Of a DNA stretch of 64,000 nucleotides, positions 2,809 through 50,620 are shown piece after piece. The position numbers were made by a program, and so were the translations under genes. The stretch's first letter is position 1; each line of letters begins with the position of its first letter. The stretch is from Bolinopsis microptera (lineage: Eukaryota; Ctenophora; Tentaculata; Lobata; Bolinopsidae), in NCBI RefSeq assembly GCF_026151205.1, contig NC_087084.1, forward strand, positions 124,001-188,000, in the 5' to 3' direction. The notes below the pieces were generated by a model that had not been told where the DNA came from, searched no databases, and saw only the letters and a list, made by a program, of their open reading frames with translations.

Positions 2809-2809
2809 T

Positions 2810-3587
2810 ACTTTATCTTTCTTCTCTTTTTAACGTGAGTATTATTACTTACCTTATCTTTCTTCTCTTTTTAACGTGAGTATTATTACTTACCTTATCT
2901 TTCTTCTCTTTTTAACGTGAGTATTATTACTTACCTTATCTTTCTTCTCTTTTTAACGTGAGTATTATTACTTACCTTATCTTTCTTCTCTTTTTAACGT
3001 GAGTATTATTACTTACCTTATCTTTCTTCTCTTTTTAACGTGAGTATTATTACTTACCTTATCTTTCTTCTCTTTTTAACGTGAGTATTATTACTTACCT
3101 TATCTTTCTTCTCTTTTTAACGTAAGTATTATTACTTACCTTATCTTTCTTCTCTTTTTAACGTGAGTATTATTACTTACCTTATCTTTCTTCTCTTTTT
3201 AACGTGAGTATTATTACTTACCTTATCTTTCTTCTCTTTTTAACGTGAGTATTATTACTTACCTTATCTTTCTTCTCTTTTTAACGTGAGTATTATTACT
3301 TACCTTATCTTTCTTCTCTTTTTAACGTGAGTATTATTACTTACCTTATCTTTCTTCTCTTTTTAACGTGAGTATTATTACTTACCTTATCTTTCTTCTC
3401 TTTTTAACGTGAGTATTATTACTTACCTTATCTTTCTTCTCTTTTTAATGTGAGTATTATTACTTACCTTATCTTTCTTCTCTTTTTAATGTGAGTATTA
3501 TTACTTACCTTATCTTTCTTCTCTTTTTAATGTGAGTATTATTACTTACCTTATCTTTCTTCTCTTTTTAACGTGAGTATTATTATC
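2810..3587. repeat. 41-bp minisatellite, about 19 copies
   Basis: The 41-bp unit comprises cttatctttcttctcttttt, aacgtgagtattattactta and a final c. It repeats with almost no variation; the exceptions are an acgtaag variant near 3120 and atgtgag variants near 3449, 3490 and 3531. It precedes the EGF exon at 3917, so it probably lies in an intron. Each unit has a pyrimidine tract and a GTGAGT donor-like hexamer. Confidence 0.95.
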
Positions 3588-3916: not shown

Positions 3917-4059
3917 GTTATGCAGCAATGCAGAGGGTTTTTGTCCGGAGAATACCTATATAACTAGTGATGGATGCGCTTGCAAAGCACAGGGATATTA
4001 CTTTGACGGAGTGTCTTGTATCGACATTAACGAGTGCGTGTTCCAGCCTTGCACTAACG
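3917..4059 (+). CDS. Exon of cbEGF/36-aa-repeat gene: EGF module end and start of the next
   Basis: The acceptor tttctcag ends at 3916 and the donor g|gtaagt follows 4059. The 143-nt exon reads LCSNAEGFCPENTY, then DGCACKAQGYYFDGVSC, then IDINECVFQPCTNG. C-x-C..GYxFDG..C closes one EGF-like module, and DINEC opens a calcium-binding EGF module (consensus D-I-N-E-C). The intron falls after the second Cys at phase 1, as is common in cbEGF proteins. Spliced to 5472 it continues G-HCINLLGSYFCLC, giving a correct six-Cys module. The 5' border is less certain: an AG at 3934 inside the exon would also be possible and would give phase 1. Earlier exons must lie upstream of, or hidden in, the first 3.9 kb. 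cbEGF modules act in extracellular or secreted proteins. Confidence 0.75.
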
Positions 4060-4327
4060 GTAAGTGTCTTGTATCGACATTAACGAGTGCGTGTTCCAGC
4101 CTTGCACTAACGGTAAGTGTCTTGTATCTACATTAACGAGTGCGTGTTCCAGCCTTGCACTAACGGTAAGTGTCTTGTATCGACATTAACGAGTGCGTGT
4201 TCCAGCCTTGCACTAACGGTAAGTGTCTTGTATCGACATTAACGAGTGCGTGTTCCAGCCTTGCACTAACGGTAAGTGTCTTGTATCTACATTAACGAGT
4301 GCGTGTTCCAGCCTTGCACTAATGGAA
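4012..4327 (+). repeat. 53-bp tandem repeat of exon end plus splice donor, 6 copies
   Basis: The last 48 nt of the exon at 3917-4059 plus the donor start are repeated at a 53-bp period (copies begin near 4012, 4065, 4118, 4171, 4224 and 4277). The first five copies end aacggtaag; the sixth ends aatggaaaa and has lost the donor. The array therefore has five equal GTAAGT donors. Because 53 is not a multiple of 3, use of a later donor shifts the frame, and read-through from the true exon reaches a TAA in the third copy. Confidence 0.95.
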
Positions 4328-5471: not shown

Positions 5472-5591
5472 GGCACTGTATAAATCTACTGGGAAGTTAT
5501 TTCTGCCTGTGTAGGGCCGGTTACCAATGGGACGGAACAACGTGCAGAGACATAAATGAGTGCTCGGAAAATCCACAGCTTTGCAATACAG
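5472..5591 (+). CDS. Exon of cbEGF/36-aa-repeat gene: second half of one cbEGF, start of the next
   Basis: The acceptor cacacag ends at 5471; the exon starts ggcactgt and ends at 5591 before gtaatt (120 nt, phase 1 at both ends). With the 'g' carried from 4059 it reads HCINLLGSYFCLCRAGYQWD, then GTTC, then RDINECSENPQLCNTG. It supplies Cys 3-6 of the module opened in the previous exon and Cys 1-2 of the next, whose remaining cysteines lie at the start of the giant exon at 6666. The symmetrical phase allows skipping without a frameshift. The polypyrimidine tract is weak, but the decamer satellite just upstream offers many branch-point-like sites. Confidence 0.85.
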
Positions 5592-6294: not shown

Positions 6295-6490
6295 TATTAC
6301 CATATAATTAGAATTAGTATTAGTATTACCATATAAGGTAATTTTACCATAGTAACACTACAATATAAGGTAATGTTACCATAGTAACACTACAATATAA
6401 GGTAATGTTACCATAGTAACACTACAATATAAGGTAATGTTACCATAGTAACACTACAATATAAGGTAATGTTACCATAGTAACACTACA
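6295..6490. repeat. 32-bp tandem repeat carrying RFX X-box-like palindromes
   Basis: The unit is gttaccatagtaacactaca plus atataaggtaat, 32 bp. Perfect gttaccatagtaac cores start at 6375, 6407, 6439 and 6471, with more degenerate copies before. The core fits the X-box consensus GTNRCC-N(0-3)-RGYAAC bound by RFX factors. Single copies recur at 377, 3782, 6638, 7067, 37238 and 47867. Confidence 0.9.
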
Positions 6491-6610
6491 ATTGCACAAA
6501 GGTTATACTGGTCGTTGTAATGACACTCTAATTGCACAAAGGTTATACTGGTCGTTGTAATGACACTCTAATTGCACAAAGGTTATACTGGTCGTTGTAA
6601 TGACACTCTA
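6491..6610 (+). repeat. 40-bp triplication with an EGF-like reading
   Basis: The segment starting attgcacaaaggttatactg is present three times at exactly 40-bp spacing (6491, 6531, 6571). One frame reads HKGYTGRCNDTL, resembling the end of an EGF module, and the last copy is followed by ctaag|gtggga, a possible donor. It may be the relic of a duplicated EGF exon. Forty is not a multiple of three, so the three copies cannot all be read in one frame. Confidence 0.85.
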
Positions 6611-6623
6611 AGGTGGGAATTAA

Positions 6624-6665
6624 CAAATCCCTCCTCAGTTACCATAGTAACAAATCCCTCCTCAG
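6624..6665 (+). promoter_or_regulatory. Tandem splice acceptors of the giant exon
   Basis: Two copies of aaatccctcctcag stand 27 nt apart, separated by ttaccatagtaac. Their AGs end at 6638 and 6665. Both preserve phase 1 from the donor at 5591: the downstream one gives GTCRNRAGSYYC, and the upstream one adds nine codons (VTIVTNPSS). A third copy lies in the coding region with its AG ending at 7067. I take the 6665 acceptor as the main one because it joins directly onto the cbEGF cysteines. Confidence 0.7.
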
Positions 6666-9600
6666 GGACGTGTCGAAACAGGGCGGGATCTTATTACTGT
6701 GACTGTGATGAGGACGCTGTCAACTGTATGGGCACCTGTATAACAGAGACTGAGTGCAATGTGTTCAAAGGAATCACAACGGAAGTAAAGAAATCCAGAC
6801 ACAAGAGAAATTTAGAAAACGACTACGAAACAATGTTAGTGAATGGTGGGTCGTATGAATCAACAGATTTCAATTTTATTGGTCAACGAAATGAGCTCAA
6901 TTCACTTGATTATGATTCTAGAAACCAAAAAGATGCTAAAATAGAAGTGGATTATATTTTTCCGCTAATAAAAGACAGAACTGATCGTAAAGACGAATTT
7001 GATGCACAGATTTTAAACAAATTCGGCCCTGAGAACACAATTGGACCACCCCTCAATCCCTCCTCAGTTACCATAGTAACACCGATAAACAATATTGAAA
7101 ATGATGTCACCGATAATACAATAAAACTGATAGACGATATTATCTCAAAACAAATTTATAATTTTCAGAATTATCTAAGTCCACAAGAAATAGCTGGTGT
7201 AGAATTCGGCACAACCGAAGGAAAAATTAGGTCGGATAGCAGTAAATTCTACGATGATGATTCTGCCATGGAATTCAAAGATGGAGAAACTGGTCAATTC
7301 TTTAGTGGTAATTCTGCTGAAGGATTTGAGATCAGTCTTGCTGGTGATGAATATGGTACAGCTGGCGGAATTGGCTTCGTAGATATGATGTCCGATGATA
7401 ATCAATTGTTCAATGGTGCTTCTGCCAAAGGATTCAAGATTAATGATGCTGGTGATGAATATGGTACACCTGGTGTAGTTGGCTTCGGAGATATGATTTC
7501 CAATGATAGTCAATTGTTTAATGATAATTCAGATGAAGGATTGGAGATCAGTGTTTCTGGTAATGAATATGGTACAGCTAGAGGAGTTGGCTTTGGAGAA
7601 ATGATGTCCGGTGGGAGTCAATTGTTCTTTGAGGATGGTGCTGGTGCTGAATACAGTACAGCTGGTGGAGTTGGCTTCGGAGATATGATGTCCGATGATG
7701 GTCAGTTCGTCAGTGGTGCTTCTGCTAAAACATTCACCGAGGATGGTGCTGGTGCTGAAAACAGTACAGCTGGTGGAGTTGGCTTCGCAGATAAGATGTC
7801 TGATGATGGTCAGTTCGTCAGTGGTGCTTCTGCAGAAATATTCACTGAGGATGGTGATAATGCTGAATACGGTACAGCTGGTGGAGTTGGCTTCGCAGAT
7901 ATGATGTCTGATGATGGTCAATTCTTTAGTGGTGCTTCAGCTGAAACATTCACTGAGGATGAAGCTGGTGATAAATATGATACAGCTGGTGGAGTTGGCT
8001 TCGGAAATATGATGTCCGATAATGGTCAGTTCTTCAGTGGTGCTTCAGCTGAAACATTCACTGAGGATGGTGCTAGTGCTGAATACAGTACAGCTGATGG
8101 AGTTGGCTTCGGAGATATGATGTCCGATGATGGTCAGTTCGTCAGTGGTGCTTCTGCTAAAACATTCACCGAGGATGGTGCTGGTGCTGAAAACAGTACA
8201 GCTGGTGGAGTTGGCTTCGCAGATAAGATGTCTGATGATGGTCAGTTCGTCAGTGGTGCTTCTGCAGAAATATTCACTGAGGATGGTGATAATGCTGAAT
8301 ACGGTACAGCTGGTGGAGTTGGCTTCGCAGATATGATGTCTGATGATGGTCAATTCTTTAGTGGTGCTTCAGCTGAAACATTCACTGAGGATGAAGCTGG
8401 TGATAAATATGATACAGCTGGTGGAGTTGGCTTCGGAGATATGATGTCCGATAATGGTCAGTTCTTCAGTGGTGCTTCAGCTGAAACATTCACTGAGGAT
8501 GGTGCTAGTGCTGAATACAGTACAGCTGATGGAGTTGGCTTCGGAGATATGATGTCCGATGATGGTCAGTTCGTCAGTGGTGCTTCTGCAGAAATATTCA
8601 CTGAGGATGGTGCTAGTGCTGAATACAGTACAGCTGGTGGAGTTGGCTTCGGAGATATGATGTCTGATAATGGTCAGTTCGTCAGTGGTGCTTCTGCAGA
8701 AATATTCACTGAGGATGGTGCTAGTGCTGAATACAGTACAGCTGATGGAGTTGGCTTCGGAAATATGATGTCTGATGATGGTCAGTTCGTCAGTGGTGCT
8801 TCTGCAGAAATATTCACTGAGGATGGTGCTAGTGCTGAATACAGTACAGCTGGTGGAGTTGGCTTCGGAGATATGATGTCCGATAATGGTCAGTTCGTCA
8901 GTGGTGCTTCTGCAGAAATATTCACTGAGGATGGTGCTATTGCTGAATACAGTACAGCTGGTGGAGTTGGCTTCGGAGATATGATGTCTGATGATGGTCA
9001 GTTCGTCAGTGGTGCTTCTGCAGAAATATTCACTGAGGATGGTGCTAATGCTGAATACGGTACAGCTGGTGGAGTTGGCTTCGGAGATATGATGTCCGAT
9101 AATGGTCAGTTCTTCAGTGGTGCTTCAGCTGAAACATTCACTGAGGATGGTGCTAGTGCTGAATACAGTACAGCTGATGGAGTTGGCTTCGGAGATATGA
9201 TGTCCGATGATGGTCAGTTCGTCAGTGGTGCTTCTGCAGAAATATTCACTGAGGATGGTGCTAGTGCTGAATACAGTACAGCTGGTGGAGTTGGCTTCGG
9301 AGATATGATGTCTGATAATGGTCAGTTCGTCAGTGGTGCTTCTGCAGAAATATTCACTGAGGATGGTGCTAGTGCTGAATACAGTACAGCTGATGGAGTT
9401 GGCTTCGGAAATACGATGTCTGATGATGGTCAGTTCGTCAGTGGTGCTTCTGCAGAAATATTCACTGAGGATGGTGCTAGTGCTGAATACAGTACAGCTG
9501 GTGGAGTTGGCTTCGGAGATATGATGTCCGATAATGGTCAGTTCGTCAGTGGTGCTTCTGCAGAAATATTCACTGAGGATGGTGCTATTGCTGAATACAG

Positions 9601-12600
9601 TACAGCTGGTGGAGTTGGCTTCGGAGATATGATGTCTGATGATGGTCAGTTCGTCAGTGGTGCTTCTGCAGAAATATTCACTGAGGATGGTGCTAGTGCT
9701 GAATACGGTACAGCTGGTGGAGTTGGCTTCGGAGATATGATGTCCGATAATGGTCAGTTCTTCAGTGGTGCTTCAGCTGAAACATTCACTGAGGATGGTG
9801 CTAGTGCTGAATACAGTACAGCTGATGGAGTTGGCTTCGGAGATATGATGTCCGATGATGGTCAGTTCGTCAGTGGTGCTTCTGCAGAAATATTCACTGA
9901 GGATGGTGCTAGTGCTGAATACAGTACAGCTGGTGGAGTTGGTTTCGGAGATATGATGTCCGATAATGGTCAGTTCGTCAGTGGTGCTTCTGCAGAAATA
10001 TTCACTGAGGATGGTGCTAGTGCTGAATACAGTACAGCTGATGGAGTTGGCTTCGGAAATATGATGTCTGATGATAGTCAGTTCGTCAGTGGTGCTTCTG
10101 CAGAAATATTCACTGAGGATGGTGCTAGTGCTGAATACAGTACAGCTGGTGGAGTTGGCTTCGGAGATATGATGTCTGATAATGGTCAGTTCGTCAGTGG
10201 TGCTTCTGCAGAAATATTCACTGAGGATGGTGCTAGTGCTGAATACAGTACAGCTGGTGGAGTTGGCTTCGGAGATATGATGTCTGATAATGGTCAGTTC
10301 GTCAGTGGTGCTTCTGCAGAAATATTCACTGAGGATGGTGCTAGTGCTGAATACAGTACAGCTGATGGAGTTGGCTTCGGAAATATGATGTCTGATGATG
10401 GTCAGTTCGTCAGTGGTGCTTCTGCAGAAATATTCACTGAGGATGGTGCTAGTGCTGAATACAGTACAGCTGGTGGAGTTGGCTTCGGAGATATGATGTC
10501 CGATAATGGTCAGTTCGTCAGTGGTGCTTCTGCAGAAATATTCACTGAGGATGGTGCTATTGCTGAATACAGTACAGCTGGTGGAGTTGGCTTCGGAGAT
10601 ATGATGTCTGATGATGGTCAGTTCGTCAGTGGTGCTTCTGCAGAAATATTCACTGAGGATGGTGCTAGTGCTGAATACGGTACAGCTGGTGGAGTTGGCT
10701 TCGGAGATATGATGTCCGATAATGGTCAGTTCTTCAGTGGTGCTTCTGCAGAAATATTCACTGAGGATGGTGCTAGTGCTGAATACAGTACAGCTGGTGG
10801 AGTTGGTTTCGGAGATATGATGTCCGATAATGGTCAGTTCGTCAGTGGTGCTTCTGCAGAAATATTCACTGAGGATGGTGCTAGTGCTGAATACAGTACA
10901 GCTGATGGAGTTGGCTTGGGAAATATGATGTCTGATGATGGTCAGTTCGTCAGTGGTGCTTCTGCAAAAATATTCACTGAGGATGGTGCTAGTGCTGAAT
11001 ACAGTACAGCTGGTGGAGTTGGCTTCGGAGATATGATGTCCGATAATGGTCAGTTCGTCAGTGGTGCTTCTGCAGAAATATTCACTGAGGATGGTGCTAT
11101 TGCTGAATACAGTACAGCTGGTGGAGTTGGCTTCGGAGATATGATGTCTGATGATGGTCAGTTCGTCAGTGGTGCTTCTGCAGAAATATTCACTGAGGAT
11201 GGTGCTAGTGCTGAATACGGTACAGCTGATGGAGTTGGCTTCGCAGATATGATGTCAGATGATGGTCAATTCTTTAGTTTTGCTTCAGCTGAAACATTCA
11301 CTGAGGATGAAGCTGGTGATAAATATGGTACAGCTGGTGGAGTTGGCTTCGGAGATATGATGTCCGGTGAGAGTCAATTGTTCTTTGAGGATGGTGCTAA
11401 TGCTGAATACTGTACAGCTGGTGGAGTTGGCTTCGCAGATATGATGTCTGATGATGGTAAATTCTTTAGTGGTGCTTCAGCTGAAACAATCATTGAGGAT
11501 GGTGCTAGTGCTGAATACGGTACAGCTGGTGCAGTTGGCTTCGCAGATATGATGTCTGATGATGGTCAATTCTTTAGTGGTGCTTCAGCTGAAACATTCA
11601 CTGAGGATGAAGCTGGTGATAAATATGGTACAGCTGGTGGAGTTGGCTTCGGAGATATGATGTCCGATAATGGTCAGTTCTTCAGTGGTGCTTCAGCTGA
11701 AACATTCACTGAGGATGGAGATAGTGCTGAATACAGTACAGCTGGTGGAGTTGGCTTCGGAGATATGATGTCCGATAATGGTCAGTTCGTCAGTGGTGCT
11801 TCTGCAGAAATATTCACTGAGGATGGTGCTATTGCTGAATACAGTACAGCTGGTGGAGTTGGCTTCGGAGATATGATGTCTGATGATGGTCAGTTCGTCA
11901 GTGGTGCTTCTGCCGAAACATTCACTGAGGATGGTGCTAGTGCTGAATACGGTACAGCTGGTGGAGTTGGCTTCGGAGATATGATATCCGATGATGGTCA
12001 ATTCTTAAGTGGTGCTTCTGCTGAAACATTCCCTGAGGATGAAGCTGGTGATAAATATGACACAGCTGGTGGAGTTGGCTTAGAAGATATGAGGTCCGAT
12101 GATGATCAATTCTTCAGTGGTGCTTCTGCCGAAGGATTCAAGATCATTGCTGCTGGTGATGAATATGATACAGCTGGTGGAGTTGGCTTCGGAGATATGA
12201 TGTCTGATCATGGTCAATTCTATAGTGGTGCTTTTGCTGAAACATTCACTGAGGATGGAGCTGGTGATGAATACAATTCAGCTGGTGGAGTTGGCTTCGG
12301 AGATATGATGTCTGATGATGGTCAATTCTTTAGTGGTGCTTCAGCTGAAACATTCACTGAGGATGAAGATGGTGATGGATACGCTACAGCCGGTGGAGTT
12401 GGCTTAGAAGATATGAAGTCCGATGATGATCAATTCTTCAGTGGTGCTTCTGCCGAAGGATTCAAGATCAGTGCTGCTGGTGATGAATATGGTACAGCTG
12501 CTGGAGTTGGCTTCGGAGATATGATGTCCGATCATGGTCAATTCGTCAGTGGTAATTCAGCCGAAGGATTCAAGATCAGAGCTGCTGGTGATGAATATGA

Positions 12601-15600
12601 TACAGCTGGTGGAGTTGGCTTCGGAGATATGATGTCTGATGATAGTCAATTCTTTAGTGGTGCTTCTGCTGAAACATTCACTGAGGATGGAGCTGGCGAT
12701 GGATATATTACGGATGGTGGAGTCGACTTCGGAGATATGATGTCCGATGATGGTCAATTCTTCATTGGTAATTCAGCTATAGAATTCAATATCAGTGCTG
12801 CTGGTGATGAATATGGTACAGCTGTTGGAGTTGGCTTCGGAGATATGATGTCTGATGATGGTCAATTCTTCAAAGGTGCTTCTGCTGAAAAATTCACTGA
12901 GGATGGAGCTGGTGATGGATACGCTACAGCTGGTGGAGTTGGCTTCGTAGATATGATGTCCGATGATGGTCAATTCTTCAAAGGTGCTTCTGCAGAAACA
13001 TTCACTGACGATGGAGCTGGTGATGGATACGCTACAGCTGGTGAAGTTGGCTTCGTAGATATGACGTCCGATGATGGTCAATTCTTCAAAGGTGGTTCTG
13101 CAGAAACATTCACTGACGATGGAGCTGGTGAAGGATACGCTACAGCTGGTGGAGTTAGCTTCGGAGATATGATGTCCGATGATGATCAATTCTTCAGTGG
13201 TGCTTCTGCCGAAGGATTTGAGATTAGTGTTGCTGCTAATGAATATGGTACAGCTGGTGGAGTTGGCTTCGGAGATATGATGTCTGATGATGGTCAATTG
13301 TTCAAAGGTGCTTTTGCTGAAGCAGTCACTGAGGATGGAGCTGGTGATGGATACGCTACAGCTGGTGGAGTTGGCTTCGTAGATATGATGTCCGATGATG
13401 GTCAATTCTTCAAAGGTGCTTCTGCAGAAACATTCACTGACGATGGAGCTGGTGATGGATACGCTACAGCTGGTGAAGTTGGCTTCGGATATATGATGTC
13501 CGATGATGGTCAATTCTTCAAAGGTGCTTCTGCCGAAGGATTCAAGATCAGTGCTGCTGGTGATGAATATGGTACAGCTGGTGGAGTTGGCTTCGGAGAT
13601 ATGATGTCCGATGATGGTCAATTCTTCAGTGGTAATTCAGCCGATGGATTCAAGATCATAGCTGCTGGTGATGAATATGATACAGCTGGTGGAGTTGGCT
13701 TCGTAGATATGATGTCCGATGATGGTCAATTCTTCAAAGGTGCTTCTGCAGAAACATTCACTGACGATGGAGCTGGTGATGGATACGCTACAGCTGGTGA
13801 AGTTGGCTTCGTAGATATGATGTCCGATGATGATCAATTCTTCAGTGGTGCTTCTGCCGAAGGATTCGAGATTATTGTTGCTGCTTATGAATATGGTACA
13901 GTTGGTGGAGTTGGCTTCGGAGATATGATGTCTGATGATGGTCAATTGTTCAAAGGTGCTTCTGCTGAAGCAGTCACTGAAGATGGAGGTGGTGATGGAA
14001 ACGCTACAGCTGGTGAAGTTGGCTTCAGAGATATGATGTCCGATGATGGTCAATTGTTCAAAGGTGCTTCTGCAGAATCATTCACTGAGGATGGAGCTGG
14101 TGATGCATACACTACATCTGGTGGAGTTAGCTTCGGAGATATGATGTCCGATGATGATCAATTTTTCAGTGGTGCTTCTGCCGAAGGATTCGAGATTAGT
14201 GTTGCTGCTGATGAATATGGTACAGCTGGTGTAGTTGGCTTCGGAGATATGATGTCTGATGATGGTCAATTGTTCAAAGGTGCTTCTGCTGAAGCAGTCA
14301 CTGAGGATGGAGCTGGTGATGGATACGCTACAGCTGGTGGAGTTGACTTCGGAGAAATGAAGTCCGATGATAATCAATTCTTTAGTGTTGCTTCTGCTAA
14401 AACATTCACTAAGGATGGAGCTGGTGATGGATACGCTACGGCTAGTGGAGTCGACTTCGGAGATATGATGTCCGATGATGATCAATTCGTCAGTGGTAAT
14501 TCAGCCGAAGGATTCAAGATCAGTGCTCCTGGTAATGAATATGGTACAGCTGGTGGAGTTGACTTCGGAGATATGATGTACGATGATGGTCAATTCTTCA
14601 AAGGTGCTTCTGCTGAAACATTCACTGAGGATGGAACTGGTGATGGATATGCTACAGCTGGTGGAGTTGGCTTCGAAGATATGATGTCCGATGATGGTCA
14701 ATTGTTCAGTGGTAATTCAGCCGAAGGATTCAAGATCAGTGCTGCTGGTGATGAATATGGTACAGCTGGTGGAGTTGGCTTCGGAGATATGATAACTGAT
14801 GATGGTCAATTCGTCAGTGGTAATTCAGCCGAAGGATTCAAGATCAGTGCTGCTGGTGATGAATATGATACAGCTGGAGGAGTTGGCTTCGTAGATATGT
14901 TGTCCGATCATGGTCAATTCTATAGTGGTGCTTCTGCTGAAATATTCACTAAGGATGGAGCTGGTGATGGATACGCTTCAGCCGGTGGAGTCGGCTTCGA
15001 AGATATGATGTCCGATGATGGTCAATTGTTCGAAGGTGCTTCTGCAGAATCATTCACTGAGGATGGAGCTGGTGATGGATACGCTACAGCTGGTGGAGTT
15101 GGCTTCGTAGATATGATGTCCGATGATGGTCAATTCTTCAAAGGTGCTTCTGCAGAAACATTCACTGACGATGGAGCTGGTGATGGATACGCTACAGCTG
15201 GTGAAGTCGGCTTCGGAGATATGATGTCTGATGATGGTCAATTGTTCAAAGGTGCTTCTGCAGAATCATTCACTGAGGATGGAGCTGGTGATGGATACGC
15301 TACAGCTGGTGGAGTTCGCTTCGTAGATATGATGTCCGATGATGGTCAATTCTTCAAAGGTGCTTCTGCTGAAACATTCGCTGAGGATGGAGCTGGTGAT
15401 GGATACGCTACAGCTGGTGCAGTTGGCCTCGAAGATATGATGTCCGATGATGATCAATTCTTCAGTGGTGCTTCTGCCGAAGGATTCAAGATCAGTGCTG
15501 CTGGTGATGAATATGGTACAGCTGGTGGAGTTGGCTTCGGAGATATGATAACTGATGATAGTCAATTCGTCAGTGGTAATTCAGCCGAAGGATTCAAGAT

Positions 15601-18600
15601 CAGTGCTGCTGGTGATGAATATGATACAGCTGGTGGAGTTGGCTTCGTAGATATGATGTCCGATCATGGTCAATTCTCAAAGTGTGCTTCTGCTGAAATA
15701 TTCACTAAGGATGGAGCTGGTGATGGATACGCTACAGCCGGTGCAGTCGGCTTCGAAGATATGATGTCCGATGATGGTCAATTCTTCGAGGTGCTTCTGC
15801 CAAAGGATTCAAGATCAGTGCTGCTGGTGATGGATATGCTACAGCTGGTGGAGTTGGCTTCGGAGATATGATGTCCAATGATGGTCAATTCTTTAAAGGT
15901 GTTTCTGCTGAAACATTCACTGAGGATGGAGCTGGTGATGGATACGCTACAGCTGGTGAGTTAGCTCCGAAGATATGATGTCTGATGATGATCAATTCTT
16001 CAGTGGTGCTTCTGCCGAAGGATTCAAGATCAGTGCTGCTGGTGATGAATATGGTACAGCTGGTGGAGTTGGCTTCGGAGATATGATGTCCGATGATGGT
16101 CAATTCTTCAAAGGTGCTTCTGCTGAAACATTCGTTGAGGATGGAGCTGGTGATGGATACGCTACAGCTGGTGCAGTTGGCTTTGAAGATATGATGCCTG
16201 ATGATGATCAATTCTTCAGTGGTGCTTCTGCCGAAGTATTCAAGAACAGTGCTGCTGGTGATGAATATGGTACAGCTGGTGGAGTTGGCTTCGGAGATTT
16301 AATGTCCAATGATGGTCAATTCTTCAAAGGTGTTTCTGCTGAAACATTCACTGAGGATGGAGCTGGTGATGGATACGCTACAGCTGGTGGAGTTGGCTTC
16401 GAAGATATGATGTCCGATGATGGTCAATTCTTCAGTGGTGCTTCTGCCGAAGGATTCAAGATCAGTGCTGCTGGTGATGAATATGGTACAGCTGGTGGAG
16501 TTGGCTTCGGAGATATGATTACCGATGATGGTCAATTCGTCAATGGTAATTCAGCCGAAGGATTCAAGATCAGTGCTGCTGGTGATGAATATGGTACAGC
16601 TGGTGGAGTTGGCTTCGGAGATATGATGTCCGATGATGGTCAATTCTTCAAAGGTGCTAAAGCTGAAACATTCGCTGAGGATGGAGCTGGTGATGGATAC
16701 GCTACAGCTGGTGCAGTTGGCTTCAAAGATATGATGTCCGATGATGATCAATTATTCAGTGGTGCTTCTGCCGAAGGATTCAAGATCAGTGCTGCTGGTG
16801 ATGAATATGGTACAGCTGGTGGAGTTGGCTTCGGAGATATGATAACCGATGATGGTCAATTCTTCAGTGGTAATTCAGTTGAAGGATTCAAGATCAGTGC
16901 TGCTGGTGATGAATATGGTACAGCTGGTGGAGTTGGCTTCGAAGATATGATGTCCGATGATGAACAATTATTCAGTGGTAATTCAGCCGAAGGATTCAAG
17001 ATCATTGCTGCTGCTGATGAATATGGTACAGCTGGTGAAGTTGGCTTCGGAGAAATGAAAACCGATGATGATCAATTATTCAGTGGTAATTCAGCCGAAG
17101 GATTCAAGATCAGTGCTGCTGGTGATGAATATGGTACAGCTGGTGGAGTTGGCTTCGGAGATATGATAACCGATGATGGTCAATTCGTCAGTGGTAATTC
17201 AGCCGAAGGATTCAAGATCAGTGCTGCTGGTGATGAATATGATACAGCTGGAGGAGTTGGCTTTGTAGATATGTTGTCCGATCATGGTCAATTCTATAGT
17301 GGTGCTTCTGCTGAAATATTCACTGAGGATGGAGCTGGTGATGGATACACTTCAGCCGGTGGAGTCGGCTTCGAAGATACGATGTCCGATGATGGTCAAT
17401 TGTTCGAAGGTGCTTCTGCACAATCATTCACTGAGGATGGAGCTGGTGATGGATACGCTACAGCTGGTGGAGTTCGCTTCGTAGATATGATGTCCGATGA
17501 TGGTCAATTCTTCAAAGGTGCTTCTGCAGAAACATTCACTGACGATGGAGCTGGTGATGGATACGCTACAGCTGGTGAAGTCGGCTTCGGAGATATGATG
17601 TCCGATGATGGTCAATTGTTCAAAGGTGCTTCTGCAGAATCATTCACTGAGGATGGAGCTGGTGATGGATACGCTACAGCTGGTGGAGTTGGCTTCGTAA
17701 ATATGATGTCCGATGATGGTCAATTCTTCAAAGGTGCTTCTGCTGAAACATTCGCTGAGGATGGAGCTGGTGATGGATACGCTACAGCTGGTGTAGTTGG
17801 CCTCGAAGATATGATGTCCGATGATGATCAATTCTTCAGTGGTGCTTCTGCCGAAGGATTCAAGATCAGTGCTGCTGGTGATGAATATGTTACAGCTGGT
17901 GGAGTTGGCTTCGGAGATATGATAACCGATGATGGTCAATTCGTCAGTGGTAATTCAGCCGAAGGATTTAAGATCAGTGCTGCTGGTGATGAATATGGTA
18001 CAGCTGGTGGAGTTGGCTTCGGAGATATGATGTCCGATGATGGACAATTCTTCAAAGATGCTTCTGCTGAAACATTCGCTGAGGATGGAGCTGGTGATGG
18101 ATACGTTACAGCTGGTGCAGTTGGCCTCGAAGATATGATGTCCGATGATGATCAATTCTTCAGTGGTGCTTCTGCCGAAGGATTCAAGATCAGTGCTGCT
18201 GGTGATGAATATGTTACAGCTGGTGGAGTTGGCTTCGGAGATATGATTACCGATGATGGTCAATTCGTCAGTGGTAATTCAGCCGAAGGATTCAAGATCA
18301 GTGCTGCTGGTGATGAATATGGTACAGCTGGTGGAGTTGGCTTCGGAGATATGATGTCCGATGATGGTCAATTCTTCAAAGATGCTTCTGCTGAAACATT
18401 CGCTGAGGATGGAGCTGGTGATGGATACGCTACAGCTGGTGCAGTTGGCTTTGAAGATATGATGCCTGATGATGATCAATTCTTCAGTGGTGCTTCTGCC
18501 AAAGGATTCAAGATCAGTGCTGCTGGTGATGAATATGGTACAGCTGGTGGAGTTGGCTTCGGAGATTTGATGTCCAATGATGGTCAATTCTTCAAAGGTG

Positions 18601-21600
18601 CTTCTGCAGAATCATTCACTGAGGATGGAGCTGGTGATGGATACGCTACAGCTGGTGGAGTTGGCTTCGTAGATATGATGTCCGATGATGGTCAATTCTT
18701 CAAAGGTGCTTCTGCTGAAACATTCGCTGAGGATGGAGCTGGTGATGGATACGCTACAGCTGGTGCAGTTGGCCTCGAAGATATGATGTCCGATGATGAT
18801 CAATTCTTCAGTGGTGCTTCTGCCGAAGGATTCAAGATCAGTGCTGCTGGTGATGAATATGTTACAGCTGGTGGAGTTGGCTCCGGAGATATGATTACCG
18901 ATGATGGTCAATTCGTCAGTGGTAATTCAGCCGAAGGATTCAAGATCAGTGCTGCTGGTGATGAATATGGTACAGCTGGTGGAGTTGGCTTCGGAGATAT
19001 GATGTCCGATGATGGTCAATTCTTCAAAGATGCTTCTGCTGAAACATTCGCTGAGGATGGAGCTGGTGATGGATACGCTACAGCTGGTGGAGTTAGCTCC
19101 GAAGATATGATGTCCGATGATGGTCAATTCGTCAATGGTAATTCAGCCGAAGGATTCAATATCAGTGCTGCTGGTGATGGATACGCTACAGCTGGTGCAG
19201 TTGGCTTTGAAGATATGATGCCTGATGATGATCAATTCGTCAATGGTAATTCAGCCGAAGGATTCAAGATCAGTGCTGCTGGTGATGGATACGCTACAGC
19301 TGGTGCAGTTGGCTTTGAAGATATGATGCCTGATGATGATCAATTCTTCAGTGGTGCTTCTGCCAAAGGATTCAAGATCAGTGCTGCTGGTGATGGATAC
19401 GCTACAGCTGGTGCAGTTGGCTTTGAAGATATGATGCCTGATGATGATCAATTCTTCAGTGGTGCTTCTGCCAAAGGATTCAAGATCAGTGCTGCTGGTG
19501 ATGAATATGGTACAGCTGGTGCAGTTGGCCTCGAAGATATGATGTCCGATGATGATCAATTCTTCAGTGGTGCTTCTGCCGAAGGATTCAAGATCAGTGC
19601 TGCTGGTGATGAATATGTTACAGCTGGTGGAGTTGGCTTCGGAGATATGATTACCGATGATGGTCAATTCGTCAGTGGTAATTCAGCCGAAGGATTCAAG
19701 ATCAGTGCTGCTGGTGATGAATATGGTACAGCTGGTGGAGTTGGCTTCGGAGATATGATGTCCGATGATGGTCAATTCTTCAAAGATGCTTCTGCTGAAA
19801 CATTCGCTGAGGATGGAGCTGGTGATGGATACGCTACAGCTGGTGCAGTTGGCCTCGAAGATATGATTACCGATGATGGTCAATTCTTCAGTGGTGCTTC
19901 TGCCGAAGGATTCAAGATCAGTGCTGCTGGTGATGAATATGGTACAGCTGGTGGAGTTGGCTTCGGAGATATGATTACCGATGATGGTCAATTCGTCAAT
20001 GGTAATTCAGCCGAAGGATTCAAGATCATTGCTGCTGCTGATGAATATGGTACAGCTGGTGAAGTTGGCTTCGGAGAAATGATAACCGATGATGATCAAT
20101 TATTCAGTGGTAATTCAGCCGAAGGATTCAAGATCAGTGCTGCTGGTGATGAATATGGTACAGCTGGTGGAGTTGGCTTCGGAGATATGATAACCGATGA
20201 TGGTCAATTCGTCAGTGGTAATTCAGCCGAAGGATTCAAGATCAGTGCTGCTGGTGATGAATATGATACAGCTGGAGGAGTTGGCTTCGTAGATATGTTG
20301 TCCGATCATGGTCAATTCTATAGTTGTGCTTCTGCTGAAATATTCACTGAGGATGGAGCTGGTGATGGATACACTTCAGCCGTTGGAGTCGGCTTCGAAG
20401 ATATGATGTCCGATGATGGTCAATTGTTCGAAGGTGCTTCTGCAGAATCATTCACTGAGGATGGAGCTGGTGATGGATACGCTACAGCTGGTGGAGTTCG
20501 CTTCGTAGATATGATGTCCGATGATGGTCAATTCTTCAAAGGTGATTCTGCAGAAACATTCACTGACGATGGAGCTGGTGATGGATACGCTACAGCTGGT
20601 GAAGTCGGCTTCGGAGATATGATGTCCGATGATGGTCAATTGTTCAAAGGTGCTTCTGCAGAATCATTCACTGAGGATGGAGTTGGTGATGGATACGCTA
20701 CAGCTGGTGGAGTTGGCTTCGTAGATATGATGTCCGATGATGGTCAATTCTTCAAAGGTGCTTCTGCTGAAACATTCGCTGAGGATGGAGCTGGTGATGC
20801 ATACTCTACAGCTGGTGCAGTTGGCCTCGAAGATATGATGTCCGATAATGATCAATTCTTCAGTGGTGCTTCTGCCGAAGGATTCAAGATCGGTGCTGCT
20901 GGTGATGAATATGGTACAGCTGGTGGAGTTGGCTTCGGAGATATGATTACCGATGATGGATAATTCGTCAATGGTAATTCAGCCGAAGGATTCAAGATCA
21001 GTGCTGCTGGTGATGAATATGGTACAGCTGGTGGAGTTGGCTTCAGAGATATGATGTCCGATGATGGTCAATTCTTCAAAGGTGCTAAAGCTGAAACATT
21101 CGCTGAGGATGGAGCTGGTGATGGATACGCTACAGCTGGTGCAGTTGGCTTCAAAGATATGATGACCGATGATGATCAATTCTTCAGTGGTGCTTCTGCC
21201 GAAGGATTCAAGATCAGTGCTGTTGGTGATGAATATGGTACAGCTGGTGGAGTTGGCTTCGGAGATATGATAACCGATGATGGTCAATTCTTCAGTGGTA
21301 ATTCAGCCGAAGGATTCAAGATCAGTGCTGCTGGTGATGAATATGGTACAGCTGGTGGAGTTGGCTTCGAAGATATGATGTCCGATGATGATCAATTATT
21401 CAGTGGTAATTCAGCCGAAGGATTCAAGATCATTGCTGCTGCTGATGAATATGGTACAGCTGGTGAAGTTGGCTTCGGAGAAGCCGAAGGATTCAAGATC
21501 AGTGCTGCTGGTGATGAATATGGTATAGCTGGTGGAGTTGGGTTCGAAGATATGATGTCCGATGATGGTCAATTCTTTAAAGGTGGTTCTACTGAAACAT

Positions 21601-24600
21601 TCGCTGAGGATGGAGCTGGTGATGGATACGCTACAGCTGGTGCAGTTGGCTTCGAAGATATGATGTCCGATGATGGTCAATTCGTCAGTGGTAATTCAGC
21701 CGAAGGATTCAAGATCAGTGCTGCTGGTAATGAATATGGAACAGCTGGTCGAGTTGGCTTCGGAGATATGATGTCCGATGATGGTCAATTCTTCAAAGGT
21801 GCTTCTGCTGAAACATTCATAGAAGATGGAGCTGGTGATGGATACGCTACAGCTGGTGGAGTTAGCTTCGAAGATATGATGTCTGATGATGATCAATTCT
21901 TCAGTGGTGCTTCTGCCGAAGGATTCAAGATCAGTGCTGCTGGTGATGAATATGGTACAGCTGGTGGAGTTGGCTTCGGAGATATGATAACCGATGATGG
22001 TCAATTCGTCAGTGGTAATTCAGCCGAAGGATTCAAGATCAGTGCTGCTGGTGATGAATATGGTACAGCTGGTGGAGTTGGCTTCGGAGATATGATGTCC
22101 GATGATGGTCAATTCTATAGTGGTGCTTCTGCTGAAATATTCACTGAGGATGGAGCTGGTGATGGATACGCTACAACTGGTGCAGTTGGCTTCGAAGATA
22201 TGATGTCCGATGATGATCAATTCTTCAGTGGTGCTTCTGCCGAAAGATTCAAGATCAGTACTGCTGGTGATGAATATGGTACAGCTGGTGGAGTTGGCTT
22301 CGGAGATATGATGTCCGATGATGGTCAATTCTTCAAAGGTGCTTCTGCTGAAACATTCGTTGAGGATGGAGCTGTTGATGGATACGCTGCAGCTGGTGCA
22401 GTTGGCTTCAGAGATATGATAACTGATGATAGTCAATACGTCAATGGTAATTCAGCCGAAGGATTCAAGATCAGTGCTGCTGGTGATGAATATGGTACAG
22501 CTGGTGGAGTTGGCTTCGGAAATATGATATCCAATGATGGTCAATTCTTCAAAGGTGCTTCTGCTAAAACATTCATAGAGGATGGAGCTGGTGATGGATA
22601 CGCTACAGCTGGTGGAGTTAGCTTCGAAGATATGATGTCCGATGATGATCAATTCTTCAGTGGTGCTTCTGCCGAAGGATTCAAGATCAGTGCTGCTGGT
22701 GATGAATTTGGTACAGCTGGTGGAGTTGGCTTCGGAGATATGATAACCGATGATGGTCAATTCGTCAGTGGTAATTCAGCTGAAGGATTCAAGATCAGTG
22801 CTGCTGGTGATGAATATGGTACAGCTGGTGGAGTTGGCTTCGGAGATATGATGTCCGATGATGGTCAATTCTATAGTGGTGCTTCTGCTGAATTATTCAC
22901 TGAGGATGGAGCTGGTGATGAATACGCTACAGCTGGTGGAGTTGGCTTCGGAAATATGATGTCCGATGATGGTCAATTCTTCAAAGGTGCTTCTGCTAAA
23001 ACATTCGCTGAGGATGGAGCTGGTGATGGATACGCTACAGCTGGTGTAGTTGGCTTCGAAGATATGATGTCCGATGATGATCAATACTTCAGTGGTGCTT
23101 CTGCCGAAAGATTTAAGATCAGTACTGCTGGTGATGAATATGGTACAGCTGGTGGAGTTGGCTTCGGAGATATGATTACCGATGATGGTCAATTCGTCAG
23201 TGGTAATTCAGCCGAAGGATTCAAGATCAGTGCTGCTGGTGATGAATATGGTACAGCTGGTGGAGTTGGATTCGGAGATATGATAACCGATGATGGTCAA
23301 TTTGTCAGTGGTAATTCAGCCGAAGGATTCAAGATCAGTGCTGCTGGTGATGAATATGGTACAGCTGGTGGAGTTGGCTTCGGAGATTTGATGTCCGATG
23401 ATGGTCAATTCTTTAGTGTTGCTTCTGCTGAAATATTCACTGAGGATGGAGCTGGTGATGGATACGCTACGGCTAGTGGAGTCGACTTCGGAGATATGAT
23501 GTCCGATCATGATCAATTCGTCAGTGGTAATTCAGCCGAAGGATTCAAGATCAGTGCTGCTGGTGATGAATATGGTACAGCTGTTGGAGTTGGCTTCGGA
23601 GATATGATGTCCGATGATGGTCAATTTTATAGTGGTGCTTCTGCTGAAATATTCACTGAGGATGGAGCTGGTGATGGATTCGCTACAGCTGGTGGAGTTG
23701 GCTTCAGAAATATGATGTCCGATGATGGTCAATTCTTCAAAGGTGCTTCTGCTGAAACATTCGCTGAGGATGGAGCTGGTGATGAATACGCTACAGCTGG
23801 TGCGGTTGGCTTCGAAGATATGATGTCCGATGATGATCAATTCTTCAGTGGTGCTTCTGCCGAAGGATTCAAGATCAGTGCTGCTGGTGATGAATATGGT
23901 ACAGCTGGTGGAGTTGGCTTCGGAGATATGATAACTGATGATGGTCAATTCGTCAGTGGTAATTCAGCCGAAGGATTCAAGATCAGTGCTGCTGGTGATG
24001 AATATGGTACATCTGGTGTAGTTGGCTTCGGAGATATGATGTCCGATGATGGTCAATTCTTTAGTGGTAATTCAGCCGAAGGATTCAAGATCAGTGCTGC
24101 TGGTAATGAATATGGTACAGCTGGTGGAGTTGGCTACGGAGATATGATGTCCGATGATGGTCAATTCTTCAAAGGTGCTTCTGCTGAAACATTTACTGAG
24201 GATGGAGCTGGTGATGGATACGCTACAGCTAGTGGAGTCGACTTCGGAGATATGATGTCCGATCATGATCAATTCGTCAGTGGTAATTCAGCGGAAGGAT
24301 TCAAGATCAGTGCTGCTGGTGATGAATATGGTACAGCTGTTGGAGTTGGCTTCGGAGATATGATGTCCGATGATGGTCAATTCTTCAGTGGTGCTTCTGC
24401 CAAAGGATTCAAGATCAGTGCTGCTGGTGATGAATATGGTACAGCTGGTGGAGTTGGCTTCGAAGATATGATGTCTGATGATGGTCAATTCTTCAAAAGT
24501 GCTTCTGCTGAAACATTCGCTAAGGATGGAGCTGGTGATGGATACGCTACAGCTGGTGCAGTTGGCTTCGAAGATATGATGTCCGATGATGATCAATTCT

Positions 24601-27600
24601 TCAGTGGTGCTTCTGCCGAAGGATTCAAGATCAGTGCTGCTGGTGATGAATATGGTACAGTTGGTGGAGTTGGCTTCGGAGATATGATTACCGATGATGG
24701 TCAATTCGTCAGTGGTAATTCAGCCGAAGGATTCAAGATCAGTGCTGCTGGTGATGAATATGGTACATCTGGTGTAGTTGGCTTCGGAGATATGATGTCC
24801 GATGATGGTCAATTCTTCAGTGGTAATTCAGCCGAAGGATTCAAGATCAGTGCTGCTGGTAATGAATATGGTACAGCTGGTGGAATTAGCTACGGAGATA
24901 TGATGCCCGATGATGGTCAATTCTTTAAAGGTGCTTCTGCTGAAACATTCACTGAGGATGGAGCTGGTGATGGATACGCTACGGCTAGTGGAGTCGACTT
25001 CGGAGATATGATGTCCGATCATGATCAATTCGTCAGTGGTAATTCAGCCGAAGGATTCAAGATCAGTGCTGCTGGTGATGAATATGGTACAGCTGTTGGA
25101 GTTGGCTTCGGAGATATGATGTCCGATGATGGTCAATTTTATAGTGGTGATTCTGCTGAAATATTCACTGAGGATAGAGCTGGTGATGGATACGCTACAG
25201 CTAGTGGAGTTGGCTTTGGAAATATGATGTCTGATGATGGTCAATTCTTCAAAGGTGCTTCTGCTGAAACATTCGCTGAGGATGGAGCTGGTGATGAATA
25301 CGCTACAGCTGGTGCAGTTGGCTTCGAAGATATGATGTCCGATGATGATCAATTCTTCAGTGGTGCTTCTGCCGAAGGATTCAAGATCAGTGCTGCTGGT
25401 GATGAATATGGTACAGCTGGTGGAGTTGGCTTCGGAGATATAATTACCGATGATGGTCAATTCGTCAGTGGTAATTCAGCCGAAGGCTTCAAGATCAGTG
25501 CTGCTGGTGATGAATATGGTACAGCTGGTGGAGTTGGCTTCGGAGATATGATAACCGATGATGGTCAATTCGTCAGTGGTAATTCAGCCGAAGGATTCAA
25601 GATCAGTGCTGCTGGTGATGAATATGGTACAGCTGGTGGAGTTGGCTTCGGAGATATGATGTCCTATGATGGTCAATTCTATAGTGGTGCTTCTGCTGAA
25701 ATATTCACTGAGGATGGAGCTGGTGATGGATACGCTACAGCTGGTGGAGTTAGCTCCGAAGATATGAAGTCCGATGATGATCAATTCTTCAGTGGTGCTT
25801 CTGCCGAAGGATTCAAGATCAGTGCTGCTGGTGATGAATATGGAACAGCTGGTGGAGTTGGTTTCGGAGATATGATGTCCGATGATGGTCAATTCTATAG
25901 TGGTGCTTCTGCTGAAATATTCACTGAGGATATAGCTGGTGATGGATACGTTACAGCTGGTGGAGTTGGCTTCGGAGATATGATGTCCGATGATGGTCAA
26001 TTCTTCAAAGGTGCTTCTGCTGAAACATTCGCTGAGGATGGAGCTGGTGATGAATACGCTACAGCTGGTGCAGTTGGCTTCGAAGATATGATGTCCGATG
26101 ATGATCAATTCTTCAGTGGTGCTTCTGCCGAAGGATTCAAGATCAGTGCTGCTGGTGATGAATATGGTACATCTGGTGTAGTTGGCTTCGGAGATATAAT
26201 TACCGATGATGGTCAATTCTTCAGTGGTAATTCAGCCGAAGGATTCAAGATCAGTGCTGCTGGTAATGAATATGGTACAGCTGGTGGAATTAGCTACGGA
26301 GATATAATGCCCGATGATGGTCAATTCGTCAGTGGTAATTCAACCGAAGGATTCAAGATCAGTGCTGCTGGTGATGAATATGGTACAGCTGGTGGAGTTG
26401 GCTTCGGAGATATGATGTCCGATGATGGTCAATTCTATAGTGGTGCTTCTGCTGAAATATTCACTGAGGATTGAGCTGGTGATGGATACGCTACAGCTGG
26501 TGGAGTTAGCTCCGAAGATATGAAGTCCGATGATGATCAATTCTTCAGTGGTGCTTCTGCCGAAGGATTCAAGATCAGTGCTGCTGGTGATGAATATGGT
26601 ACAGCTGGTGGAGTTGGCTTCGGAGATATGATTACCGATGATGGTCAATTCGTCAGTGGTAATTCAGCCGAAGGATTCAAGATCAGTGCTGCTGGTGATG
26701 AATATGGTACAGCTGGTGGAGTTGGCTTCGGAGATATGATGTCCGATGATGGTCAATTCTATAGTGGTGCTTCTGCTGAAATATTCACTGAGGATATAGC
26801 TGGTGATGGATACGCTACAGCTGGTGGAGTTGGCTTTGGAAATATGATGTCCGATGATGGTCAATTCTTCAAAGGTGCTTCTGCTGAAGGATTCAAGATC
26901 AGTGCTGCTGGTGATGAATATGGTACAGCTGTTGGAGTTGGCTTCGGAGATATGATGTCCGATGATGGTCAATTTTATAGTGGTGCTTCTGCTGAAATAT
27001 TCACTGAGGATGGAGCTGGTGATGGATACGCTACAGCTAGTGGAGTTGGCTTTGGAAATATGATGTCTGATGATGGTCAATTCTTCAAAGGTGCTTCTGC
27101 TGAAACATTCGCTAAGGATGGAGCTGGTGATGGATACGCTACAGCTGGTGCAGTTGGCTTCGAAGATATGATGTCCGATGATGATCAATTCTTCAGTGGT
27201 GCTTCTGCCGAAGGATTCAAGATCAGTGCTGCTGGTGATGAATATGGTACAGCTGGTGGAGTTGGCTTCGGAGATATGATTACCGATGATGGTCAATTCG
27301 TCAGTGGTAATTCAGCCGAAGGATTCAAGATCAGTGCTGCTGGTGATGAATATGGTACAGCTGGTGGAGTTGGCTTCGGAGATATGATAACCGATGATGG
27401 TCAATTCGTCAGTGGTAATTCAGCCGAAGGATTCAAGATCAGTGCTGCTGGTGATGAATATGGTACAGCTGGTGGAGTTGGCTTCGGAGATATGATGTCC
27501 GATGATGGTCAATTCTATAGTGGTGCTTCTGCTGAAATATTCACTGAGGATGGAGCTGGTGATGGATACGCTACAGCTGGTGGAGTTAGCTTCGAAGATA

Positions 27601-28456
27601 TGAAGTCCGATGATGATCAATTCTTCAGTGGTGCTTCTGCCGAAGGATTCAAGATCAGTGCTGCTGGTGATGAATATGGTACAGCTGGTGGAGTTGGCTT
27701 CGGAGATATGATAACCGATGATGGTCAATTCGTCAGTGGTAATTCAGCCGAAGGATTCAAGATCAGTGCTGCTGGTGATGAATATGGTACAGCTGGTGGA
27801 GTTGGCTTCGGAGATATGATGTCCGATGATGGTCAATTCTTCAGTGGTGCTTCTGCTGAAGGATTCAAGAGGATGGAGCTGGTGATGAATACGCTACAGC
27901 TGGTGGAGTTGGCTTCGGAGATATGATGTCCGATGATGGTCAATTCTTCAGTGGTAATTCAGCCGAAGGATTCAAGATCAGTGCTGCTGGTGATGAATAT
28001 GGTACAGCTGGTGTAGTTGGCTTCGGAGATATGATGTCCGATGATGGTCAATTCTTCAGTGGTAATTCAGCCGAAGGATTCAAGATCAGTGCTGCTGGTG
28101 ATGAATATGGTACATCTGGTGTAGTTGGCTTCGGAGATATGATGTCCGATGATGGTCAATTCTTCAGTGGTAATTCAGCCGAAGGATTCAAGATCAGTGC
28201 TGCTGGTGATGAATATGGTACAGCTGGTGGAGTTGGCTTCGGATATATGATGTCCGATGATGGTCAATTCTTAAGTGGTGCCTCTGCCGAAGGATTTGAT
28301 GGTATTAAATCTAGTGTTTACGATGTTGAATTTACGGCTGATGAAGACTCTGTCAATTCCAAACTTTTCAGTGATATATACTACAGTAGAGCATCTTCTG
28401 TTGGCTCCACTTGTAAGGAACTGAAACGGCAATATGAAGAATTATGTGGGGCTTGA
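6666..28456 (+). CDS. Giant terminal exon: cbEGF end, furin-type site, ~194 acidic 36-aa repeats, Cys-containing tail (frame broken in five places)
   Basis: The exon opens GTCRNRAGSYYCDC, completing a cbEGF module, then CMGTCITETEC. A furin-type R-H-K-R motif lies at 6797-6808, followed by about 150 unique residues. From about 7280 the protein is a 36-residue tandem repeat to about 28290, then a tail containing GSTCKELKRQYEELCGA and a TGA at 28456. If intact it would be roughly 7,260 residues from this exon alone. A typical unit is DDGQFFSGNSAEGFKISA followed by AGDEYGTAGGVGFGDMMS, with about five net negative charges and almost no Cys. Lesions: 1-nt deletions near 15789, 15958 and 27868, TAA at 20961-20963 (GGTCAA to GGATAA) and TGA at 26472-26474 (GGA to TGA). 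Either a decaying gene or sequencing errors in a hard repeat. Likely a secreted or extracellular structural or adhesive protein (inference from EGF modules, furin site and low complexity); I recognise no named family. Confidence 0.8.
7689..8480 (+). repeat. 4-unit (432-bp) duplication inside the array
   Basis: The stretch containing SGASAKTFTEDGAGAENST near 7710 recurs almost identically 432 bp later (the tctgctaaaa marker at 7721 and 8153). The four units in each copy match in order, showing one block duplication. Confidence 0.9.
8447..11240 (+). repeat. 6-unit (648-bp) higher-order repeat
   Basis: The marker tccgataatggtcagttctt lies at 8447, 9095 and 9743, exactly 648 bp apart, and again in modified form near 10.7 kb. 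Within each block the six units keep a fixed order of ADG/AGG, GN/GD and SDN/SDD variants, so amplification acted on six-unit blocks. Confidence 0.9.
23300..27430 (+). repeat. 7-unit (756-bp) higher-order repeat
   Basis: Equivalent blocks begin at about 23316, 24072 and 24828 (756-bp spacing), and further pairs at 25584/26340 and 26664/27420 share that spacing. Marker features such as ATASGVDFGDMMSDHDQF recur once per block. This 3' part of the array is more homogeneous than the middle, suggesting recent amplification. Confidence 0.85.
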
Positions 28457-40339: not shown

Positions 40340-40559
40340 ATAATTTGGTACAACATACGTTGATAATAACGAGCAACAAAACTTTAACCTCATAACGAAA
40401 TATGACTATCTTCGAGCATTTTTTACAATGCTATCGCTACCGCGCAATTTCACTCTCATTTACAAGACAAAAATATCACCGCGCATTCTTCAGACCCTGT
40501 GTCGCTGTTCTAAATTTATGTCAAGAGATAAGAGTTATTTAGAAATTCTTAATAGTAGT

Positions 40560-41175: not shown

Positions 41176-41395
41176 AATTATATTGATTATTTATATGTTA
41201 TACTAACCTATTGATTGTTCTATAGGTCCCTTTATGATTTGATCTAGTTCTCAAGAAACGGCTACGTGTTTTATTACCCACACAAGCAAACATTACAATC
41301 TAGCTAGGCACACTTGGGGCATAGTTGGGGCAAATACAGTTTGGGCACACTACCTACCTTGGATTCGTTTCGGGCTTCGTTTCGGGCGCGACAGT
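41176..41395 (+). mobile_element. Copy of the 3' LTR plus host flank lodged inside the integrase gene
   Basis: 41176-41297 matches the last 122 bp of the LTR, ending attaca. It continues with the same flank found outside the element (atctagctaggcacacttgg to gattcgtttcgggct, 41298-41376), identical to 42522-42600. An internal copy therefore includes sequence from beyond the element's edge. The junction lies at a shared aattatattgattattta-like stretch. Confidence 0.9.
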
Positions 41396-45157: not shown

Positions 45158-46277
<1,120 letters not shown>

Positions 46278-50352: not shown

Positions 50353-50620
50353 TTGTTTCACTTTTTTGAAATATAATGCTCCTGCTTGTCTGCAGTTGAG
50401 CACTTTTGGGAAACAAAGCAACAACTAATAATTGCATAAATCATTAGGTGAGAATCAGCAGGGGTGTCCCGCTTCCTACACCCCTGGGAGTCAGTGTATA
50501 ATTCTTGTTGTGAAATAATGTGTCCTTATAGTTATACATTATGCAGCAATAGGACGCAGCGGGTGGCCGACAACTGAACTCAATTGAACATAATTCCCAC
50601 TTACCAATCAGCTTAATTTG

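Follow-up and report, generated by a model that had tools for sequence, protein, structure and literature searches.

A tandem-repeat exon joined to calcium-binding EGF modules in Bolinopsis microptera, with a reading frame that breaks in unit 79

Does a long array of 108-bp tandem units in the genome of the ctenophore Bolinopsis microptera encode a giant repeat protein, or is it an untranslated satellite that is open in one frame by chance? The array lies on the forward strand of a 64,000-nucleotide stretch of contig NC_087084.1 (C13:124001-188000 in our genome search), which we call the window and whose own numbering is used throughout. A preliminary description, made from the letters alone, had read the array as part of one open exon coding for more than 7,000 residues, preceded by calcium-binding EGF (cbEGF) modules. 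We found that the exon is real and unusual and had rightly been noticed, but that its length had been over-read: the frame breaks in unit 79 and closes at 15871. The claim that this is a coding exon of a cbEGF protein, which is probably secreted, was upheld. Our preferred reading, to which we give about an even chance, is that the array forms the last exon of a real secreted multi-cbEGF gene whose C-terminus is a tandem-repeat polymer.

The array and the exons joined to it

Three exons (3917-4059, 5472-5591 and the giant exon starting at 6666; exons A, B and C) have GT-AG borders and are joined in one open frame (Table 1). Their spliced peptide scores 45.0 bits for EGF_CA in Pfam against a cut-off of 27, with two matching stretches, which bears out the cbEGF modules of the preliminary description; the exon A peptide alone reaches 23.9 bits for cEGF, below the Pfam cut-off of 26.6. 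Since exon A starts inside an EGF module, at least one preceding exon is likely. The unique part of exon C, 6666-7318, was open in 0 of 5000 shuffles. Also present as described earlier are the furin-type R-H-K-R motif, which is the only R-x-[KR]-R in 3041 residues (6668-15790), and the non-repeat tail with its two Cys, downstream of which AATAAA occurs at 28617 and 28657.

We counted 195 units, close to the 194 or so of the preliminary description, the first at 7319 and the last beginning at 28181. Since units of two types are interleaved, false indels arose when the whole mixture was aligned to a single consensus, and indels within the array were therefore read from the unit spacing. Of the 194 spacings 188 are exactly 108 bp, three are 107 bp, two 84 bp and one 69 bp; the in-frame size changes are thus two losses of 24 bp and one of 39 bp. 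The two interleaved flavours are xxFTEDGAGDGYATA and EGFKISAAGDEYGTA, and by a simple letter rule the first occurs in all of units 4-45. The 36-residue consensus is ERFTEDGAGDEYGTAGGVGFGDMMSDDGQFFSGASA. In the 187 units of exact length and register, a set that omits units out of register (at 15909 and 27857, with a deletion inside each), the mean pairwise difference is 16.8% and the mean net charge is -6.0 per unit, so that the acidic character described before was found again. The 2824 residues of the 5’ open array consist of G (19.7%), A (13.2%), D (12.2%), S (10.2%), F (9.3%), E (7.4%) and T (5.8%), with P at 0.1%. Aromatic residues stand about every nine residues in the unit, at positions 3, 12, 20 and 30. 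This periodicity has P 0.001 at period 9 and 0.066 over all harmonics, values which, like the codon-class test below, include one out-of-register unit (27857). The nine-residue spacing would suit four short strands per unit, which is only suggestive.

Searching the B. microptera genome (264.65 Mb in 232 contigs), we obtained 53 matches to the unit, all within 7319-28306 of the window, and one match each to the linker and the tail; none of the three occurs at a second locus in this genome. The statement that the unit belongs to no described family also held: for unit and linker no family scored above cut-off in Pfam or NCBIfam and no PDB match was accepted. A 35-row profile of the unit gave 0 PDB matches at E up to 1, and the single-sequence search of PDB gave one with E 0.42. 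The weak matches to DUF7213 (26.1 bits, cut-off 27) and to TAA-Trp-ring (18.8 bits, cut-off 25.8) were put down to composition. Scans with the unit profile produced 37 pattern hits in viral genomes and 55 in prokaryote genomes, none of which was confirmed.

Reading frame, substitutions and competing explanations

That a tandem array is open says little by itself for translation, because 68% of 5000 mononucleotide shuffles of the unit were open as tandem units in at least one of the six frames. The unit consensus is open on the minus strand too. An open array without a gene is found elsewhere in the window, where a TAG trinucleotide repeated 373 times (45159-46277) gives open reading frames (ORFs) of 380-395 codons on both strands.

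Among the 132 distinct variants in the 76 units of the 5’ half there is no nonsense change, against 4.3 expected (P 0.010), and in the two wrong frames of this half stops occur as expected (6 vs 6.3 and 18 vs 16.9). As nonsense changes were tested over several subsets (five in one count and six in another, the latter giving P 0.14 and 0.055 for the 5’ half), the value of 0.010 is only modest. Frameshift indels are likewise absent: their ratio to distinct substitutions is 0:132 in the 5’ half and 5:49 in the noncoding tandem arrays of the window (Fisher P 0.0018). For this control two blocks of a 28-bp satellite were merged; when they are counted apart the ratio is 6:61, with P 0.0012 for the 5’ half and 0.07 for the 3’ half. 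The satellite itself, located at 51472-54950 (125 copies) and 61271-64000 (at least 98 copies), varies in length almost only in a G run. In the 5’ half the reading frame appears protected, and the substitutions within the array show no protection of residues.

A number of results weigh against translation of the array or against its place in a secreted protein. Distinct variants among the 187 units comprise 32 synonymous, 131 replacement and 2 nonsense changes, close to the 32.6, 126.7 and 5.7 expected, and the shortage of nonsense changes has P 0.07 in this set. Block duplicates behave in the same way, with 55 synonymous changes in the 3’ part (8 pairs; 54.7 expected), 30 in the 5’ part (5 pairs; 30.0 expected) and 8 across the break (2 pairs; 9.1 expected); these 15 pairs were picked by hand from 40 listed runs and share some units. 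No codon-class constraint on aromatic, hydrophobic, acidic or Gly positions was detected in the array. The ratio of nonsynonymous to synonymous differences between nearest neighbours (pN/pS) is 0.51 for the first 36 units, rises to 1.15 over the 40 that follow and stands at 1.03 for 109 units from the 3’ part, and constraint on the first 36 units was set aside given the neutral block duplicates there. In the 108 units of the 3’ half, 2 nonsense changes against 4.5 expected (P 0.16) and 3 frameshift indels to 116 substitutions against 5:49 in the control (P 0.11) do not differ significantly from neutrality. The indel control is moreover small, with 50 deletions in one G run of one satellite, and without the two G-run sites it falls to 3:49 (one-sided P about 0.02, by hand). 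In the 40 kb upstream no further EGF exon was found by motif, and a heuristic scan to -14 kb revealed no convincing signal-peptide exon; the sole start it returned, at -152, resembles by eye a retroelement ORF. Finally, no relative was found, the genome of B. microptera being the sole animal collection searched. The preliminary description had named equally common synonymous and nonsynonymous changes as the sign of an untranslated satellite. This sign is present within the array, but the kept frame of the 5’ half speaks against an untranslated satellite. Taken together, the array was probably translated while it spread, with almost any residue tolerated, and its 3’ part is now cut off or only appears so.

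The frame of exon C is open at 6572-15871 only. It covers 78 whole units; 79 units start at or before 15695, and the 79th carries the first deletion, whose nearest counterparts have an extra A and yet differ at one other base. All five disabling changes (three deletions and two stops) are located from unit 79 on and none in the 5’ half. From 15958 to about 27868 the units stand in another frame, and the last units and the tail are back in the frame of exon C. The second deletion generates GTGAGT at 15956, the only donor-like site found in the array; rescue of the frameshifts by splicing was rejected, as this site lies past the stop at 15871. Inspection by eye of 15782-15797 showed no classic slippery heptamer for a programmed frameshift, and no scan was made. 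The third deletion may instead reflect two unit flavours that were joined imprecisely.

These 3’ breaks represent either a recent truncation or a residual assembly error, and the two are versions of our preferred reading rather than alternatives to it. According to the genome paper, the B. microptera assembly was built with wtdbg, gap-closed and polished with Illumina reads using pilon, and its annotation drew on Iso-Seq and RNA-seq (PMC10232365). Unique placement of short reads should be hard within 20 kb of similar units, where polishing would be poor, so that single-base losses may survive there. If the three 1-bp deletions, and perhaps the stops, were such errors, the true chain would count about 7,260 residues from exon C with 195 units, which we regard as slightly short of evenly probable. 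In its favour, unit spacing makes each of the three indels a loss of one base, clearly from a 2-base run in one case and probably so in another, and their net change of 3 leaves the tail in the frame of exon C; in addition the coding unit is preserved through about 110 copies of the 3’ part, which holds two stops only. Both nonsense changes, however, are substitutions, which are not expected from consensus errors of this kind and are less easily blamed on polishing, and two of them in the 3’ part fall within the neutral expectation of 4.5. A truncated gene, with translation ending at 15871 and the 116 units past unit 79 drifting neutrally as 3’ untranslated region or intron, seems to us possible, though distinctly below an even chance. 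It would account for the clean 5’ half and for disabling changes that begin with unit 79, and the second deletion would have supplied a donor-like site in the discarded part. A stop in the last exon normally escapes nonsense-mediated decay. Against truncation stands the small number of defects, 3 frameshift indels to 116 substitutions where about 12 would follow from the satellite ratio of 5:49, a difference that is not significant (P 0.11); the loss would therefore have to be recent.

The only true alternative, an untranslated satellite open in one frame by chance, we judge unlikely. It draws on the neutral proportions of synonymous and replacement changes in nearly every test, on the ease with which shuffled units and the minus strand of the consensus are open, and on a neighbourhood full of noncoding tandem arrays. 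It does not explain that the first units continue in frame a unique stretch of which none of 5000 shuffles was open, that nonsense and frameshift changes are lacking in the 5’ half, or that the array, confined to one locus, ends in an in-frame tail.

For a last exon of a secreted multi-cbEGF gene, the following course can be proposed. Unequal exchange, in a part of the contig that lies near its end and is prone to repeats, would have multiplied the 108-bp unit. As bulk material the repeat would supply, for every 36 residues, four to five aromatic ones and a net negative charge of about six, and one residue could stand in for another while the reading frame was kept; by analogy with the variable number tandem repeat (VNTR) exon of mucin or filaggrin, length and composition may count more than letters. 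The chain would be secreted, possibly cut after R-H-K-R, and outside cells it may form a polyanionic matrix or mucus-like polymer that is hydrated and binds calcium. As the preliminary description proposed, it might also respond to calcium, behave as a filament or gel and be cross-linked through the Cys of its tail. The 116 units that follow unit 79 would have been coding until recently and are now severed by a frameshift, which would be either a genuine allele with a truncated product or an error left uncorrected in the assembly. A bolder version, which we consider rather doubtful, places the product among the longest secreted proteins from a single exon: the full chain, to which exon C alone would contribute about 7,260 residues and more than 1,100 net negative charges (195 x -6.0), would be released by furin from the cbEGF part and serve in this phylum as a polyanion that does what sulfated proteoglycans or mucins do elsewhere, with a unit not known from any other organism.

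If expressed, the gene would present a giant repeat exon in an early-branching phylum in which residues are neutral and selection guards the frame only. Irrespective of this, long open-looking arrays are weak evidence for giant proteins, and frame breaks and residue constraint need to be checked first.

Further features and neighbourhood

Table 1. Features of the cbEGF gene and its repeat array (window positions)
Feature	Positions	Strand	Remarks
cbEGF exon A	3917..4059	+	C-terminal part of one EGF, then the beginning of another (DINEC); donor GTAAGT
53-bp tandem duplication, 5.9 copies	4010..4322	+	end of exon A with splice donor; stops on read-through into the copies
cbEGF exon B	5472..5591	+	EGF_CA 33.3 bits on its own peptide (Pfam)
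Giant exon C as readable	6666..15871	+	last EGF end, R-H-K-R and unique linker; then 78 complete units and a partial 79th; some 27 residues out of frame before the stop
R-H-K-R, furin-type motif	6797..6808	+	
Unique linker	6809..7318	+	single-locus
Tandem array, 195 units of 36 residues (108 bp)	7319..28296	+	array end 28296 from Tandem Repeats Finder
1-bp deletion, frameshift	15789..15790	+	reads TTCTTCGAGGTGC; nearest counterparts TTGTTCGAAGGTGC in units at 15026, 17400, 20424
1-bp deletion, second frameshift	15958..15959	+	GGTGAGTTAGCTCCGAAG; counterparts with one more G at 19086, 25743, 26499
In-frame TAA in unit	20961..20963	+	most units CAA or CAG
In-frame TGA in unit	26472..26474	+	most units GGA, GGT or GCT
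Third 1-bp deletion, by unit spacing	27868..27870	+	TTCAAGAGGATGG; no full counterpart found
Unique C-terminal tail	28297..28456	+	two Cys and stop codon
Example unit peptide			TAGGVGFGDMMSDDGQF

Several repeated elements lie around the cbEGF exons. A near-palindromic GTTACCATAGTAACA element, at 6327-6652 and 7053-7081, is placed mostly before exon C and has 11 sites in the window at up to one mismatch, against 0.01 expected; the copy inside exon C, which contains CCTCCTCAG, is read through as part of the linker. At 2806-3585 a 41-bp unit is repeated 19 times with 99% likeness; its plus strand contains GTGAGT, which resembles a splice donor, and its minus strand AGGTAAGT. As with the 53-bp array, an exon/intron border may have been multiplied here.

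In the remaining window GTTAGG is repeated 37 times at 50620-50839, forming a telomere-like array inside the contig, whose end is about 175 kb away. Retroelement remains are found at 29425-31349, 33162-34920, 38025-41183 and 57216-59207 and include reverse transcriptase domains, an ORF with a GIY-YIG domain and an RNase H/H2C2 integrase ORF. At 37718-38141, beside retroelement ORFs, a 212-bp sequence is perfectly duplicated in tandem. Rfam gave nothing in the window at gathering scores. Among open-access papers in PMC, titles and the starts of abstracts pointed to none on the unit or on such a ctenophore protein.

Comparison with known systems

In being rich in Gly and Asp, with aromatic residues about every nine positions, the unit resembles the calcium beta-roll of RTX nonapeptides. 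The RTX motif is GGxGxDxUx, and the position of Asp in our unit does not fit it. Membership of the RTX family was rejected, since neither 6668-9400 nor 15999-19500 has it among its Pfam matches with E values of 1 or below, a check in which the HMMER filters drop most weak matches.

Giant repeat exons are also known from mucins and profilaggrin. Pro, Thr and Ser abound in mucin repeats, which are O-glycosylated. In contrast, Pro is nearly missing from our array and its charge comes from Asp and Glu, so that a mucin VNTR domain was dismissed on composition (P 0.1%, T 5.8% and S 10.2% in 2824 residues). What is shared is the architecture: secreted and membrane mucins of the MUC family have one large VNTR exon (PMC13345508). 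Profilaggrin also carries its repeats in one giant exon, and truncating alleles of it are common. It is an intracellular protein with an EF-hand N-terminus and a histidine-rich unit of 324 residues, unlike the extracellular cbEGF modules and the acidic 36-residue unit found here. It is portrayed as a giant repetitive polyprotein that is cut by proteases into its units (PMC5053269).

The upstream exons resemble those of cbEGF matrix proteins such as fibrillin and hemicentin, in which EGF_CA modules lie on cassette exons. We know of no cbEGF matrix protein with such an acidic terminal array, and in the part of the gene seen there is no second matrix domain. If expressed, the protein would be a candidate material of ctenophore mesoglea, mucus or tentacle glue. 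As to the last of these, Babonis et al. 2018 report that low-complexity regions are not enriched in colloblast candidates, that the domains of these candidates and of known adhesives do not overlap significantly overall, and that EGF_CA is the only Pfam domain exclusive to known adhesives and colloblast candidates jointly (PMC6278862). A role in glue is therefore one option among matrix and mucus, EGF_CA being the domain in which the array gene resembles the colloblast and tentacle candidates of ctenophores.

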